Of a stretch of 29,047 nt of DNA, positions 7,896-17,790 are shown piece after piece. Each line of letters starts with the position of its first letter. The first letter of the stretch is position 1. Below the pieces are notes generated by a model. That model worked only from the letters and a program-made list of their open reading frames with translations, was not told the origin of the DNA and ran no database searches. This DNA is from a virus, in IMG/VR virus record IMGVR_UViG_3300030202_000115, positions 1-29,047 of that record. One strand, given 5' to 3'. The position numbers and the translations under genes are program-made.

Positions 7896-8090
7896 ATGAA
7901 AAAGTTTTTAGAAAAGTACCTTATCGGACAGATGCTAAAGTCAAAGAAGTTTTGGTATGCAGTTAGTTCTGTAGTTGTGCCTGCTTTAGTTACTTACTTA
8001 GGAGTTGACGAAACAACTGCAAAAGATTTGTACTATGCAATCTTAACATTAATTGTAGGTCAGGGAATTGCAGACGTTGCAAAGAAATAA
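7896..8090 (+). CDS. Holin-like small membrane protein
   Basis: A 64-residue protein with a basic N-terminus (MKKFLEKYLIG...KSKKFWYAV) and two hydrophobic segments (about 20-36 and 46-60) separated by a short polar turn (GVDETTAKD). It follows the DUF5675 gene by two bases, which fits a class II holin that forms lesions in the inner membrane. Similar short proteins are often annotated as holins in Bacteroidetes phages. The phosphoesterase frame overlaps its 3' end. Confidence 0.55.
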   Translation: MKKFLEKYLIGQMLKSKKFWYAVSSVVVPALVTYLGVDETTAKDLYYAILTLIVGQGIADVAKK

Positions 8091-8799
8091 CAGGTACAGA
8101 TTAAAGCCACACGAAATTGTGGCACTAGAAAAGATGCGAGAAACCGAGACTAGAAACGTTCTAGTTATCGGTGACTTGCATGAACCCTTTTGTCTTGAAG
8201 GCTACTTAGACTTTTGCATAGAACAATACTATAACTATAATTGTACTGAAGTAGTCTTTATAGGCGATGTAATAGACAATCACTACTCTAGCTATCATGA
8301 GGCTAGTGCTGACGGTATGGGCGGCTTAGACGAGCTAGAACTAGCTATTAAGAAAATAGGGCGTTGGCGTGATGCTTTCCCTATGGCTACTGTTATAATA
8401 GGAAACCACGACAGAATAATAATGCGTAAAGCTCAAACCTCTAGCATTCCTTCTAAATGGATAAAGTCTTTTAAAGAAGTATTAGAAACACCTGATTGGC
8501 ACTTTGTAGAAAGATATGAGCTAGACGGTGTACAGTATATACATGGAGAAGGCGGAACTGCTAGGACTAAGTGTCGTGCTGATATGATGAATACAGTACA
8601 GGGTCATTTACATACCCAATGCTATACAGAGCATTATGTCGGCAAGAAGTTTAGAGTATTTGGAACACAAGTCGGCTGCGGTATCAATCACAAATCGTAT
8701 GCTATGGCGTATGCAAAATACGGAAAAAGACCTGCGGTTTCTTGTGCTGTTGTGTTAAATAACGGCAAAACACCCATCAATTTGTTAATGCCTTTATAG
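8068..8799 (+). CDS. Calcineurin-like metallophosphoesterase
   Basis: It contains the full motif set of metal-dependent phosphoesterases: GDLH (residues 35-38), GDVID (66-70), GNHDR (112-116), a His in YIHGEGG (about 159) and GHLH (179-182). These bind two metal ions and hydrolyse phosphomonoesters or phosphodiesters. Phage versions may act on DNA ends or nucleotides, but the substrate cannot be told from sequence. The start used is TTG 8068, overlapping the holin-like gene; an in-frame ATG lies at 8134 (residue 23), still upstream of the first motif. The segment between them (RYRLKPHEIVAL) looks conserved, which favours the upstream start. It is the last gene before the non-coding region. 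Confidence 0.85.
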   Translation: MQTLQRNNRYRLKPHEIVALEKMRETETRNVLVIGDLHEPFCLEGYLDFCIEQYYNYNCTEVVFIGDVIDNHYSSYHEASADGMGGLDELELAIKKIGRWRDAFPMATVIIGNHDRIIMRKAQTSSIPSKWIKSFKEVLETPDWHFVERYELDGVQYIHGEGGTARTKCRADMMNTVQGHLHTQCYTEHYVGKKFRVFGTQVGCGINHKSYAMAYAKYGKRPAVSCAVVLNNGKTPINLLMPL

Positions 8800-8913: not shown

Positions 8914-8945
8914 TTTGGTTGGTAACTTTTTTTATTTTATCTTTG
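8914..8945 (+). promoter_or_regulatory. Bacteroidetes-type promoter for the early region
   Basis: TTTG at 8914-8917, then 20 bases, then TATCTTTG at 8938-8945. This exactly fits the Bacteroidetes sigma-ABfr pattern TTTG-N19-21-TAnnTTTG. Transcription would start a few bases after 8945, just ahead of the structured RNA. It is the only strong host-type promoter I see in an intergenic region, and it reads into the replication genes. Confidence 0.8.
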
Positions 8946-8952
8946 TACCATC

Positions 8953-9037
8953 AAAAAGGGGGGAGCTAAAAATAAGATGATTGCGAAACTCAAGTTAAAC
9001 TATAATAGCTCTGAACTTAGACTACCCCTCTTTTTTT
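8953..9037 (+). ncRNA. Structured short RNA or terminator-type leader
   Basis: The 5' arm AAAAAGGGGGG (8953-8963) pairs with CCCCTCTTTTT (9025-9035) as an 11-bp stem with one G:U, followed by a short U run. The roughly 60-nt interior holds smaller pairings: GAGCTA (8963-8968) with TAGCTC (9006-9011), and AAGTT (8992-8996) with AACTT (9014-9018). With a promoter directly upstream, this is either a discrete small RNA of about 90 nt or an attenuator for the early operon. It is not a match to a known RNA family that I can name. Confidence 0.6.
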
Positions 9038-9039
9038 AA
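8977..9039 (+). CDS. Possible 20-residue leader peptide
   Basis: An ATG inside the structured leader opens a 20-codon frame (MIAKLKLNYNSSELRLPLFF) that stops exactly in the U-tract of the terminator. Ribosomes translating it would disrupt the 3' arm, so it could couple translation to antitermination. The evidence is only the ORF and its placement; it may be a chance ORF. Confidence 0.3.
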   Translation: MIAKLKLNYNSSELRLPLFF

Positions 9040-9071
9040 AACAAAATTAAATTAATTAAATAAATCAAAAA

Positions 9072-9311
9072 ATGGAAAACTACAAAATTGTAAACAAGAA
9101 AACAAACGCTACTTATTTTTTAAATGAAAAGCAATATGAAACATTTTTTAACGTAAACAGTCTTTACAAAGCTGGTGAGTTTCAATATGAAGTCTATAAC
9201 TTAACTAAAGCAAAAGCTAAAAGAATAAACAAGATGTTAGACGTGCTTGCACACTTAAGTGTATTTGCAGCTTCAGTATTAGCTACTTTACTTTACATTC
9301 AAAACTATTAA
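9072..9311 (+). CDS. Hypothetical protein with C-terminal membrane helix
   Basis: A 79-residue protein, first gene of the early block. The N-terminal half is polar, with many Asn, Lys and Tyr residues. The C-terminus has a single hydrophobic helix (about 58-76, LAHLSVFAASVLATLLYI), so it is probably anchored in the inner membrane with a cytoplasmic head. Being first after the host-type promoter suggests an immediate-early role such as host takeover. No family is recognised. Confidence 0.6.
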   Translation: MENYKIVNKKTNATYFLNEKQYETFFNVNSLYKAGEFQYEVYNLTKAKAKRINKMLDVLAHLSVFAASVLATLLYIQNY

Positions 9312-10280: not shown

Positions 10281-10670
10281 ATGCAAACAGAAAAACTAAA
10301 AGAAATGTTTTATAAGTACAATCTTGTAAAAGACACAGATGTTTTCCGACATCAACATTTTGTAATCTTAACTAGGTCAGGGATAGAAAAAATTATGGCT
10401 CAGGAATTAATAACAGTTAGATTTGAAGTAGTTGTATCAGAACCTAATTTTGCAGGAGTTAAAGCTATTGCAACAAAAGATGACAAAACTATTGAAACTT
10501 ACGGCTCAGCACTTAAAGGAGAAGGTTTTAAGGACGGAAATTGTAACACTTGGTATGTATTAGAGATGGCAGAGAAAAGAGCCTTAGCACGAAGTATTCT
10601 GAAACTTTTAAATCTTTATGAGATTAATGTCAAGTCAGAAGATGAAGCAGAAGATTTCAAAAAGAAATAA
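10281..10670 (+). CDS. Possible single-strand annealing or recombination protein
   Basis: A 129-residue protein: DVFRHQHFVILTRSGIEKI, then FEVVVSEPNFAGVKAIATKD, a conserved GxGFKDGN turn and a C-terminal helix AEKRALARSILKLL. The beta-sheet-plus-helix layout and the AEKRA motif recall Erf/Rad52-like annealing proteins of phages, and the SSB-like gene is next in line. It is shorter than typical family members. The family is common in Bacteroidetes phages, but I cannot confirm its activity from sequence. Confidence 0.45.
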   Translation: MQTEKLKEMFYKYNLVKDTDVFRHQHFVILTRSGIEKIMAQELITVRFEVVVSEPNFAGVKAIATKDDKTIETYGSALKGEGFKDGNCNTWYVLEMAEKRALARSILKLLNLYEINVKSEDEAEDFKKK

Positions 10671-10674
10671 TCAT

Positions 10675-10757
10675 AAAGTGGAGAGGTTAGATAAACATAA
10701 ATTATAAAATTCAGCAGTTATGCTTTGTGGCTTTATCAATTCCTCTTCACTTTTTTT
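10675..10757 (+). terminator. Long structured hairpin with U-tract (terminator or small RNA)
   Basis: The outer stem AAAGTGGAGAGG (10675-10686) pairs with CCTCTTCACTTT (10742-10753), 12 bp with one G:U, followed by a run of seven T. Inside, GATAAA (10690-10695) pairs with TTTATC (10732-10737) and CATAA (10696-10700) with TTATG (10718-10722). The nested stems make it larger than a simple terminator. It separates the possible annealing gene from the SSB-like gene and may set their relative expression. Confidence 0.65.
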
Positions 10758-12913: not shown

Positions 12914-13178
12914 AATTACAGAAAAAGAAGTTAAAAGCCAATCAGATGCAGTTCTTTGGCACTTAAAAACTTACGGAAGTATTACAAGCTATGAAGCTAT
13001 AAAAGAATACGGAGCAACTAGGCTTTCAGCTATTATTTTTAATCATAGAAAAGAAGGTTATGACATAGACAGTATGCCTTTGACTAAAAAGACAAGATTT
13101 GGAAGAAATACAACTATTGCTAAGTATATCTATACTGCACCACCTCAAGAGCTGATACAGGAAATGCTATGGCATTAA
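12900..13178 (+). CDS. Small helix-turn-helix protein (HTH_39-like)
   Basis: A 92-residue protein from the ATG at 12900 (the frame is open to a TTG at 12891). The core VLWHLKTYGSITSYEAIKEYGATRLSAIIFNHRKEGYDI matches the phage HTH_39 winged-helix type. Such proteins are common beside replication genes and are presumed to bind DNA; the target is unknown. Its end overlaps the NinG gene. Confidence 0.75.
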   Translation: MKTIKITEKEVKSQSDAVLWHLKTYGSITSYEAIKEYGATRLSAIIFNHRKEGYDIDSMPLTKKTRFGRNTTIAKYIYTAPPQELIQEMLWH

Positions 13179-13582
13179 AAACTATAAGCAAACTTAAAAA
13201 AGAACTTGACAAGTGGTTCAGCCTTTACATTAGACTTAGAGAAGCTAACGAGTACGGAATGTGCCAATGCTTCACTTGTGGAATAGTAAGGCACTATAAA
13301 GAAAGTATGCAAAACGGACACTTTCAGTCAAGAAAACATTTATCTACACGCTTTGACGAAGAAAATTGTCAAGTACAATGCGTTAAATGTAATGTCTATG
13401 CTTGGGGAGAACAGTACAAATTTGCGTTAGCTTTAGACTCTAAGTATGGAGAAGGCAAAGCTGAAGAATTACAACACTTAGCTAGAACAACTTTAAAGAT
13501 TTCTAGGATAGAATATGAAGAAAAGATAAATTATTACAAATCACTTGTTGATAAGTTAAAAAAAGAAAAAGGAATTGAGTAA
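13169..13582 (+). CDS. ninG: NinG-like recombination protein
   Basis: A 137-residue protein with the NinG (Rap) pattern: MCQCFTCG, then MQNGHFQSRKH, then RFDEENCQVQCVKCN, and AWGEQYKFALALD. The two Cys pairs and the NGHF/RKH segment form an HNH-like zinc-binding fold. In lambda, NinG acts in phage recombination by resolving or targeting branched DNA structures. Here it lies in the replication block, overlapping the small HTH gene by ten bases. The C-terminal helix (about 110-137) is charged. Length is shorter than lambda NinG, mainly at the N-terminus. Confidence 0.85.
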   Translation: MALKTISKLKKELDKWFSLYIRLREANEYGMCQCFTCGIVRHYKESMQNGHFQSRKHLSTRFDEENCQVQCVKCNVYAWGEQYKFALALDSKYGEGKAEELQHLARTTLKISRIEYEEKINYYKSLVDKLKKEKGIE

Positions 13583-15800: not shown

Positions 15801-16394
15801 ATGAAACAACAAGTTAAGATAAGTAAAGTAAAGGGAAACCCTAACAACCCTAGAATAATTAAAAACGATAAGTTTAAAAAGCTAGTAAAGTCAATACAAG
15901 AATTTCCTGAAATGTTAAAGCTAAGACCTATTGTAGTTGATGAAGAAATGATTGTCTTAGGTGGCAATATGAGATTGAAGGCAAGTAAAGATGCAGGGCT
16001 AAAAGAAGTATGGATTGAAGTAGCAGAAGGACTTACTGAAGAACAAAAGAAAGAATTTATAGTTAAAGACAATGTAGGCTTTGGAGAATGGGAATGGGAT
16101 ATGTTAGCTAATGAATGGGATAGCGTACAACTTGCTGAATGGGGTTTAGATGTATGGCAGAATGAAGATGATATTGAAACAAGTGATGAGTTTACTTTAC
16201 CTGATGGAGAAAAAAGCAACTTAGAGCAAATAACATACACACTAAGTAGTGAGCAAAGCAATATAATAAAAGAAGCTGTACAAGAAATAAAATACACAGA
16301 GGATTATAAGTATGTAGAAACTTACGGAAATGAAAATAGTAATGGTAACGCTTTATATTTACTAATAACAGAATGGAGAAAAACAAACAGTTAA
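15801..16394 (+). CDS. ParB/sulfiredoxin-like domain protein
   Basis: A 197-residue protein. Residues 1-90 match the ParB N-terminal fold: NPNNPRIIKNDKFKKLVKSIQEFP, RPIVVDEEMIVLGGNMRLKASKDAG. GGNMRLKA takes the place of the ParB box II GERRxRA, which binds nucleotide and phosphate. Residues 90-130 (EFIVKDNVGFGEWEWDMLANEWD) are typical of phage ParB-like proteins that often stand beside or fused to DNA methylases. Here its gene overlaps the first Mom-like gene by 22 bases, pointing to joint work in DNA modification or in choosing sites to modify. It could act as a nuclease or CTP-dependent switch; the sequence does not decide. Confidence 0.75.
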   Translation: MKQQVKISKVKGNPNNPRIIKNDKFKKLVKSIQEFPEMLKLRPIVVDEEMIVLGGNMRLKASKDAGLKEVWIEVAEGLTEEQKKEFIVKDNVGFGEWEWDMLANEWDSVQLAEWGLDVWQNEDDIETSDEFTLPDGEKSNLEQITYTLSSEQSNIIKEAVQEIKYTEDYKYVETYGNENSNGNALYLLITEWRKTNS

Positions 16395-17071
16395 AAGACA
16401 TAAAAGTAAAGATAATAGATAGTAAAACTGCAAAAAGATATACTATTGAAAATCATTACATGAAAACTTTTCCAATTCCAAAAGTATGCTTTGGAGTTTT
16501 CTATAATAAATTATTAAGAGGGGTTGTAACATTTGGATTAAGTCCTAGTACAGAACAAAAAGTAAAAAAAATAGTTCCTAAAATTAACGATAATGAATTT
16601 ATAGAAATGCAAAGAATGAACCTCTCAGATGTTTTAGGTCATAATGCAGAAAGCTATGTATTGGGAAAAATATATAAACTTTTCAAAGATAATACGAAAA
16701 TAAAATTATTGCTAACACACGCGGGAGGTTGTAAAAATGATTGTGGTATTGTTTATCAAGCTAGTAGTTGGCTATATTTTGGAAAAGAAGTATGTAATGA
16801 TTTTTATCAAACTGTCAAAGGTGAATACAAAAATATTATTTCTCCTATGCGTTTTGGTAGAGTTCCAAGAGAGGTGGTAAAACTAGGAAGTCAAAAAGTA
16901 GGAGAGTTTTTATTTGGTTCAGGAAACATAGTAAATTCTTTCAGATATTTGTATATTTACCCTTTAAATAAAGGGATAAGAAGTTATTTAGAAAAAAAAT
17001 GTCTAGATTATCCTAAAGATAGTCAAGTGTTTAGAAAAAATCAAGAATGGATAACAGGGGGTGACCAATAG
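16373..17071 (+). CDS. Mom-like GNAT-fold DNA modification protein (copy 1, divergent)
   Basis: A 232-residue protein related to the copy that follows. Shared positions run along the whole core: an SK-A stretch then a HY pair (residues 17-29), a FGVFYNKLLRGVVTFG strand pair (40-55), NEFIEMQRMNLSDVL (75-90), and AGGCKNDCGIVYQASS (117-132). This is the pattern of the Mom family, which in phage Mu converts adenine in DNA to N6-carbamoylmethyladenine to block restriction. It is more divergent than copy 2: LLTHAGGCKND replaces SFADGTQCGDG. It overlaps the ParB-like gene by 22 bases. Its last codons and stop lie in the 5' part of a mini-tRNA-like RNA (17057-17104). Confidence 0.7.
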   Translation: MEKNKQLKDIKVKIIDSKTAKRYTIENHYMKTFPIPKVCFGVFYNKLLRGVVTFGLSPSTEQKVKKIVPKINDNEFIEMQRMNLSDVLGHNAESYVLGKIYKLFKDNTKIKLLLTHAGGCKNDCGIVYQASSWLYFGKEVCNDFYQTVKGEYKNIISPMRFGRVPREVVKLGSQKVGEFLFGSGNIVNSFRYLYIYPLNKGIRSYLEKKCLDYPKDSQVFRKNQEWITGGDQ

Positions 17072-17112: not shown

Positions 17113-17790
17113 ATGGGGAGAGCAAAAGAAATAATAGTAAAAGTTATAACAAGTAAAGTTGCCAATGCATTTGTAAAGAAACAACACTACTCAGGAAAGG
17201 TTGTGCCTAATAGCACTTTGCATTTTGGTTGCTTTTTAGATAAACGCTTACATGGTGTAATGAGTTTCGGACCTAGCATAAATAAAAAAGGAACAATTAA
17301 TTTAGTAGAGGGAACAGGTTGGAATGAGTTTATTGAATTAAACAGAATGGCTTTTAATGACTTTTTGCCTAAGTATAGTGAAAGCAGATGTATCAGTGTT
17401 GCTATGAAATTAATAAAGAAAAACGCACCTCACATAAAATGGGTGATTAGTTTTGCAGATGGCACACAATGTGGAGATGGAACTATATACAGAGCAAGTG
17501 GTTTTAAATTGGTTGGTATTGCTGAAAATACAGCTTTAAGAATAAACCCTGAAACAGAAAAACCAATGCACGTAATACAAGCACACCATTTAAAAATGAG
17601 TAGTGAGTTTAGAAATTGGAAAGCTTATGAAGGTTATCAGTTAAAGTATATATATTTTATTGATAAGAAAATGGAAAGTAATTTAACTAAACCAATTATT
17701 CCTTTTAGCGAAATTGATAAGATAGGTGCAGGAATGTATAAAGGTGAAAAGATAACATTAAAAGAAAGAAAAGAAAATAAGCGTGATTAG
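17113..17790 (+). CDS. mom-like: Mom-like adenine modification protein (copy 2)
   Basis: A 225-residue protein with the full Mom-family look: VITSKVANAFVKKQHYSG (residues 11-28), LHFGCFLDKRLHGVMSFGPS (36-55), GWNEFIELNRMAFNDFLP (69-86), SESRCISVAMKLIKKN, and the signature SFADGTQCGDGTIYRASGF (113-131). The family uses a GNAT-type fold to add a carbamoylmethyl group to N6 of adenine in phage DNA, which protects it from host restriction; the donor is not fully settled. The basic tail ends with KERKENKRD, whose last two codons (CGT GAT) and stop form part of the tRNA-Gly-like RNA 17781-17852. The terminase genes follow. Confidence 0.8.
   Translation: MGRAKEIIVKVITSKVANAFVKKQHYSGKVVPNSTLHFGCFLDKRLHGVMSFGPSINKKGTINLVEGTGWNEFIELNRMAFNDFLPKYSESRCISVAMKLIKKNAPHIKWVISFADGTQCGDGTIYRASGFKLVGIAENTALRINPETEKPMHVIQAHHLKMSSEFRNWKAYEGYQLKYIYFIDKKMESNLTKPIIPFSEIDKIGAGMYKGEKITLKERKENKRD

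Follow-up and report, generated by a model that had tools for sequence, protein, structure and literature searches.

Leader-peptide attenuators, such as the trp leader, consist of a promoter, a short ORF and a terminator-like stem ahead of an operon. The locus considered here lies in a 29-kb virus record, IMGVR_UViG_3300030202_000115, from an uncultured Bacteroidetes-type phage (the whole record is called "the window" below). It shares this succession of elements before an operon, but it departs from the attenuators in having no mutually exclusive anti-terminator, a long loop and no conservation, and in being missing in relatives. The put RNA of phage HK022 (named in PMC9378689), whose host is of a different phylum, resembles them as a structured part of an early transcript; it offers a lead only for how the element described below (hereafter the insert), or the RNA family that we call R1, might act.

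The promoter and the predicted stem-closed RNA behind it

In the window, a metallophosphoesterase gene (8068-8799, with Pfam and PHROG matches) is followed by an AT-rich gap and then by the promoter (Table 1), after which the early operon encodes, in this order, a 79-aa protein, small ORFs, a DUF3127/single-strand-binding protein, a replication-initiation O-like protein and, further on, NinG. The first-pass annotation had proposed, from the sequence of the window, a host-type Bacteroidetes promoter with replication genes 3' of it and of a structured RNA, and both proposals are borne out. The pattern TTTG-N19-21-TATCTTTG has a single match in the window, and 60 shuffles have none. Counting the window itself, 92 of 96 distinct sequences have a TAnnTTTG box after the metallophosphoesterase gene, 60 of these 92 in the TATCTTTG version. 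Since the -7 box of flavobacteria occupies positions -12 to -5 (PMC9723704), applying this register to TATCTTTG would place the transcription start at A8950.

Table 1. Position of the features discussed, numbered along the window
Feature	Position	Strand	Remarks
Bacteroidetes-type promoter TTTG-N20-TATCTTTG	8914-8945	+	TTTG 8914-8917, 20 nt, TATCTTTG 8938-8945
Stem-closed RNA	8953-9035	+	arms 8953-8963 AAAAAGGGGGG and 9025-9035 CCCCTCTTTTT, 11 bp; T-run 9031-9037
Insertion of 90 bp as against the empty site	8957-9046	+	from comparison with L084, L096, L024 and L068; last 5 bases (9042-9046, CAAAA) repeat 8952-8956
Alternative inner stem	8963-9011	+	GAGCTA 8963-8968, TAGCTC 9006-9011; can coexist with the main stem
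20-codon ORF	8977-9039	+	ATG 8977, TAA 9037-9039; MIAKLKLNYNSSELRLPLFF; coding status unsupported
First early gene	9072-9311	+	79 aa; no family match in our searches; variable among relatives
R1 family member	10672-10757	+	covarying phage RNA; gross anatomy as in the insert, a distant relation to it possible

The predicted stem-closed RNA right behind the promoter, with its 11-bp stem ending in a U-tract, is likewise present as first described. Stems of this class (at least 11 pairs, at least 5 of them G-C, running into a T-run) are absent from 40 shuffles of the window, and the + strand of the window itself has two, at 8953-9035 and 10675-10753. The predicted fold of the insert reaches -19.0 kcal/mol, with a z-score of about -2.1 to -2.4, which is only moderately unusual. 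Stem and U-tract are both features of an intrinsic terminator; the stem, however, encloses 61 nt, whereas a canonical terminator has a short loop, and it is not among the hairpins listed by a short-loop terminator scan of the window. As for the GAGCTA/TAGCTC stem that had been thought to compete with the main one, it does exist and does have base 8963 in common with it, but the competition does not hold: when this stem is forced, the main stem keeps 10 bp (-16.3 against -19.0 kcal/mol), the loss being one pair. It would not act as an anti-terminator, because the two stems overlap at that single base and can form together. The 20-codon ORF is also there, stopping where the U-tract ends and with A at -3 and -6 of its ATG, a positive context in Flavobacterium (PMC6847099); an ATG ORF as long as this is present in 5% of shuffles of the insert, so its length is unremarkable.

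The insertion and the promoter slot in relatives

Relatives were collected by searches with the two flanking proteins, which gave 44 and 80 viral loci. Two of them (L084 and L096) have an empty site reading TACCATCAAAATTAAATTAATTAAATAA, against which (L084) the insertion in the window is clean, and in two others (L024 and L068) the window's variant of the promoter is directly joined to the leader of the first early gene. Among the 96 distinct sequences, the promoter leads directly to the first early gene in 27, another small ORF lies behind it in 46, and four are devoid of the TAnnTTTG box; in the remaining 19, the gap ahead of the first ATG ORF exceeds 60 nt, several of these gaps proving on inspection to be artefacts of the choice of start codon or promoter. 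Real noncoding stretches at the same promoter are those of L070, L109, L113, L251, L255, L269 and L332.

The insert itself was found in the window and in one other contig, 3300030061_000404 (L002/L121), which is identical to the window over 5,973 bp and 99.98% identical over 8,144 bp, that is, the same strain. Searches by blastn and nhmmer among the fetched loci, phages and plasmids, four pattern scans of viral sequences and one genome scan gave no recognisable homolog beyond this strain (L121): the viral matches inspected were the same strain, the different RNA of L251, and otherwise coding sequence or unrelated hairpins, and the four matches of the genome scan bore titles of unrelated taxa. 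An Rfam check had been suggested by the first-pass annotation; against Rfam 15, at gathering as well as relaxed thresholds, the insert matches no family and obtains chance-level scores only. For the conservation of its stems and ORF, also put forward there as a check, the insert offers one strain only; what the comparison does establish is its absence in nearly all relatives, which places it outside the conserved regulation of the early genes.

Since nearly all relatives are without it, it is likelier that the insert encodes an accessory RNA than that it is a switch built into the operon. Overall, an accessory stem-closed RNA or a leader, carried in a cargo slot, is the most likely identity; the specific reading that we prefer, at a probability of roughly 45%, is an accessory RNA module giving an RNA of ~88 nt with read-through into the early operon. 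The slot behind the conserved early promoter would receive different small ORFs or noncoding RNAs in different relatives; in our phage, the transcript from A8950 would fold back through the 11-bp stem, partial termination or processing near the U-tract would release the RNA of ~88 nt, and part of transcription would continue into the early operon. We infer the production of a discrete RNA, the read-through, and an action of the RNA itself, not of the 20-codon ORF; it may be a small regulatory RNA, its partial termination or processing at the 3' end, and any target, being presumed. The reading builds on the promoter, the stem, the insertion as against an empty site, its rarity and the other noncoding stretches in the slot. 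Counting against an accessory RNA are its occurrence in a single strain, which affords no covariation, a fold z-score of only about -2, and the lack of a predicted target: antisense pairing of the insert with start regions of the phage itself does not surpass that of shuffles (16%).

The insert might instead be a cis-acting leader, in which part of transcription would end at the stem and U-tract and read-through would be lowered or tuned, possibly under modulation by ribosomes on the 20-codon ORF. The position between promoter and early genes, the U-tract in the 3' arm, the favourable context of the ATG and the stop codon closing the U-tract would all suit such a leader, which we nevertheless consider unlikely, as relatives have the same promoter and operon without the insert, the loop is long, the alternative stem leaves the main stem standing and the ORF is of ordinary length. 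In its strongest form, the translation-sensing attenuator of the replication genes that had first been imagined, this idea is not supported, since other relatives with the same promoter and first gene do without the element; the coexistence of the two stems and the non-canonical loop of 61 nt also weaken it.

R1, a covarying RNA family with a member further along the operon

The second stem of the class mentioned above was spotted by a stem scan directly 3' of ORF 10281-10670, and it belongs to R1, an RNA kept in relatives with compensatory changes. The R1 core pattern matched 103 viral stretches (by our own estimate, a few would be expected by chance), and the family is spread over about 100 viral contigs, with one copy of ~85 nt per locus, between early genes (L002, L004, L015, L044, L102, L113, L115, L158 and most of L247-L346). 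In an alignment of 42 sequences (A1), 14 pairs have changed on both sides and 92% of the cells are paired, with a covariation score of 0.486 as compared with 0.204 for column shuffles and a maximum of 0.19 after sliding; RNAalifold, unaided, predicts the closing and inner stems and misses a small third one. In the closing stem, 33 G-U pairs stand against 5 A-C, so that the gene strand is the one read as RNA. A covariance model gives 73 bits to the window copy, finds members in nearly all the pattern loci and adds further ones in L102 and L115, as well as divergent ones in L158 and L129.

In most of 69 examples, R1 lies no more than about ten bases from a stop codon, often some twenty bases ahead of the next start, and it is preceded by a TAnnTTTG box in the 120 bases 5' of it in only two of the 69. 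The proteins encoded next to it resemble, from a reading of their sequences, single-strand-binding, DNA polymerase, recombination and exonuclease proteins. A T5 run is present in the last columns of 13 of the 42 aligned sequences only, so R1 is not simply a terminator. There is no match to it in Rfam and no convincing relative by blastn in cultured phages, nor did we find a description in the open-access literature, by titles and abstracts; it is thus a widespread phage RNA family, apparently undescribed, and probably more important than the insert itself. On its own, the insert adds another unproven small RNA to those of phages; its follow-up, however, led to a covarying family that is not in Rfam, with members in about 100 contigs of uncultured viruses, and to a slot behind a promoter in which small genes and noncoding RNAs are exchanged among relatives. 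Through both R1 and the slot, the RNAs encoded by marine Bacteroidetes-type phages become open to test, provided that the family turns up in cultured relatives.

It is tempting to see in the insert a strongly diverged or decaying copy of R1, of which the same operon holds a regular member. Both RNAs are of ~85 nt, on the sense strand and in the early operon of the same phage, with a long closing stem (in R1 often ending in a U-run) and an inner stem in the same position. In a comparison chosen post hoc, the insert's interior aligns globally with R1 members better than dinucleotide shuffles do (p 0.0025-0.011) and better than at least 99% of same-length pieces of the window, and the best match, L338, is of the same subtype or clade. 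Yet local alignment, in the same post hoc comparison, is not robust (p 0.02-0.45), and the covariance model does not recognise the insert as a member, its 9.7 bits all coming from the closing stem. R1 has strong covariation and an invariant core, GGUUA ... GUUAUNCUUUG ... AAUUCC, and lies between genes without a promoter, whereas the insert starts at a promoter and is devoid of this core (UUAUNCUUUG and AAUUCC are absent), reading GGAGCUAA ... GUUAAACUAUA ... ACUACCCC at the corresponding positions; a nucleotide HMM of the core gives it no score. We therefore find descent from R1 doubtful. A wider version, in which the slot and the seams between early genes carry exchangeable stem-closed RNAs and the insert is a fast-diverging member of R1's class, seems to us just as speculative. 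Among 72 distinct loci covering both places, a noncoding RNA at the promoter is present in 6 of 25 with R1 and 1 of 47 without, but most R1 loci were fetched for R1 and the window was chosen for the insert, so that this association is a weak hint and no independent test.

Least probable is a neutral or chance insertion without function, for example a small mobile or recombination-derived fragment, as could be suggested by the single strain, the 5-bp direct repeat at the ends, the inverted-repeat-like arms and the modest z-score, against which stand a stem with T-run unexpected by chance and a start at the +1 of a promoter where other RNAs sit; the absence of further copies in the viral pattern scans speaks against an active mobile repeat.

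Other occupants of the slot

A conserved noncoding RNA of ~330 nt, starting with GTTCATTGAAATAGTAG shortly after a TAnnTTTG box, is found in L109 (4317-4655), L255 (7725-8061, - strand) and L129 (10509-10838, - strand); in the first two it lies at the promoter of the insert, and the L109 copy has no Rfam match. Noncoding stretches with a common 3' part, each of ~500 nt, lie at this promoter in L251 (1627-2120), L269 (near 13050-13555, - strand) and L113 (4840-5405); in L251 and L269 an intrinsic-terminator-like hairpin and a second TACATTTG box follow the noncoding RNA, and a stem-closed middle segment combines shared flanks with unrelated interiors. Like the insert, the RNAs of L251, L269 and L332 start at this promoter, those of L251 and L269 also having the same +1 bases, TACCATCAAA, followed by a G-run stem; unlike it, these two are several hundred bases long, and the insert is not a member of this group, whose profile misses it. 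In L070 (4876-5085), ~190 nt without an ORF lie behind the same promoter and end in a strong terminator-like hairpin, CCTCCCTAT..ATAGGGGGGTTTTT. Another hairpin, GGGGGTGTAAAAACCCCC, which has 32 copies among the loci first collected and often comes after the small variable ORFs of the slot (in L010, L045 and L072, for example), may mark seams of exchanged cargo. Finally, further along the window, 16373-17071 encodes a protein of the Mom family of DNA-modification proteins (Pfam PF25680, E 5.5e-38), and the next ORF (17113-17790) may have similarity to it.
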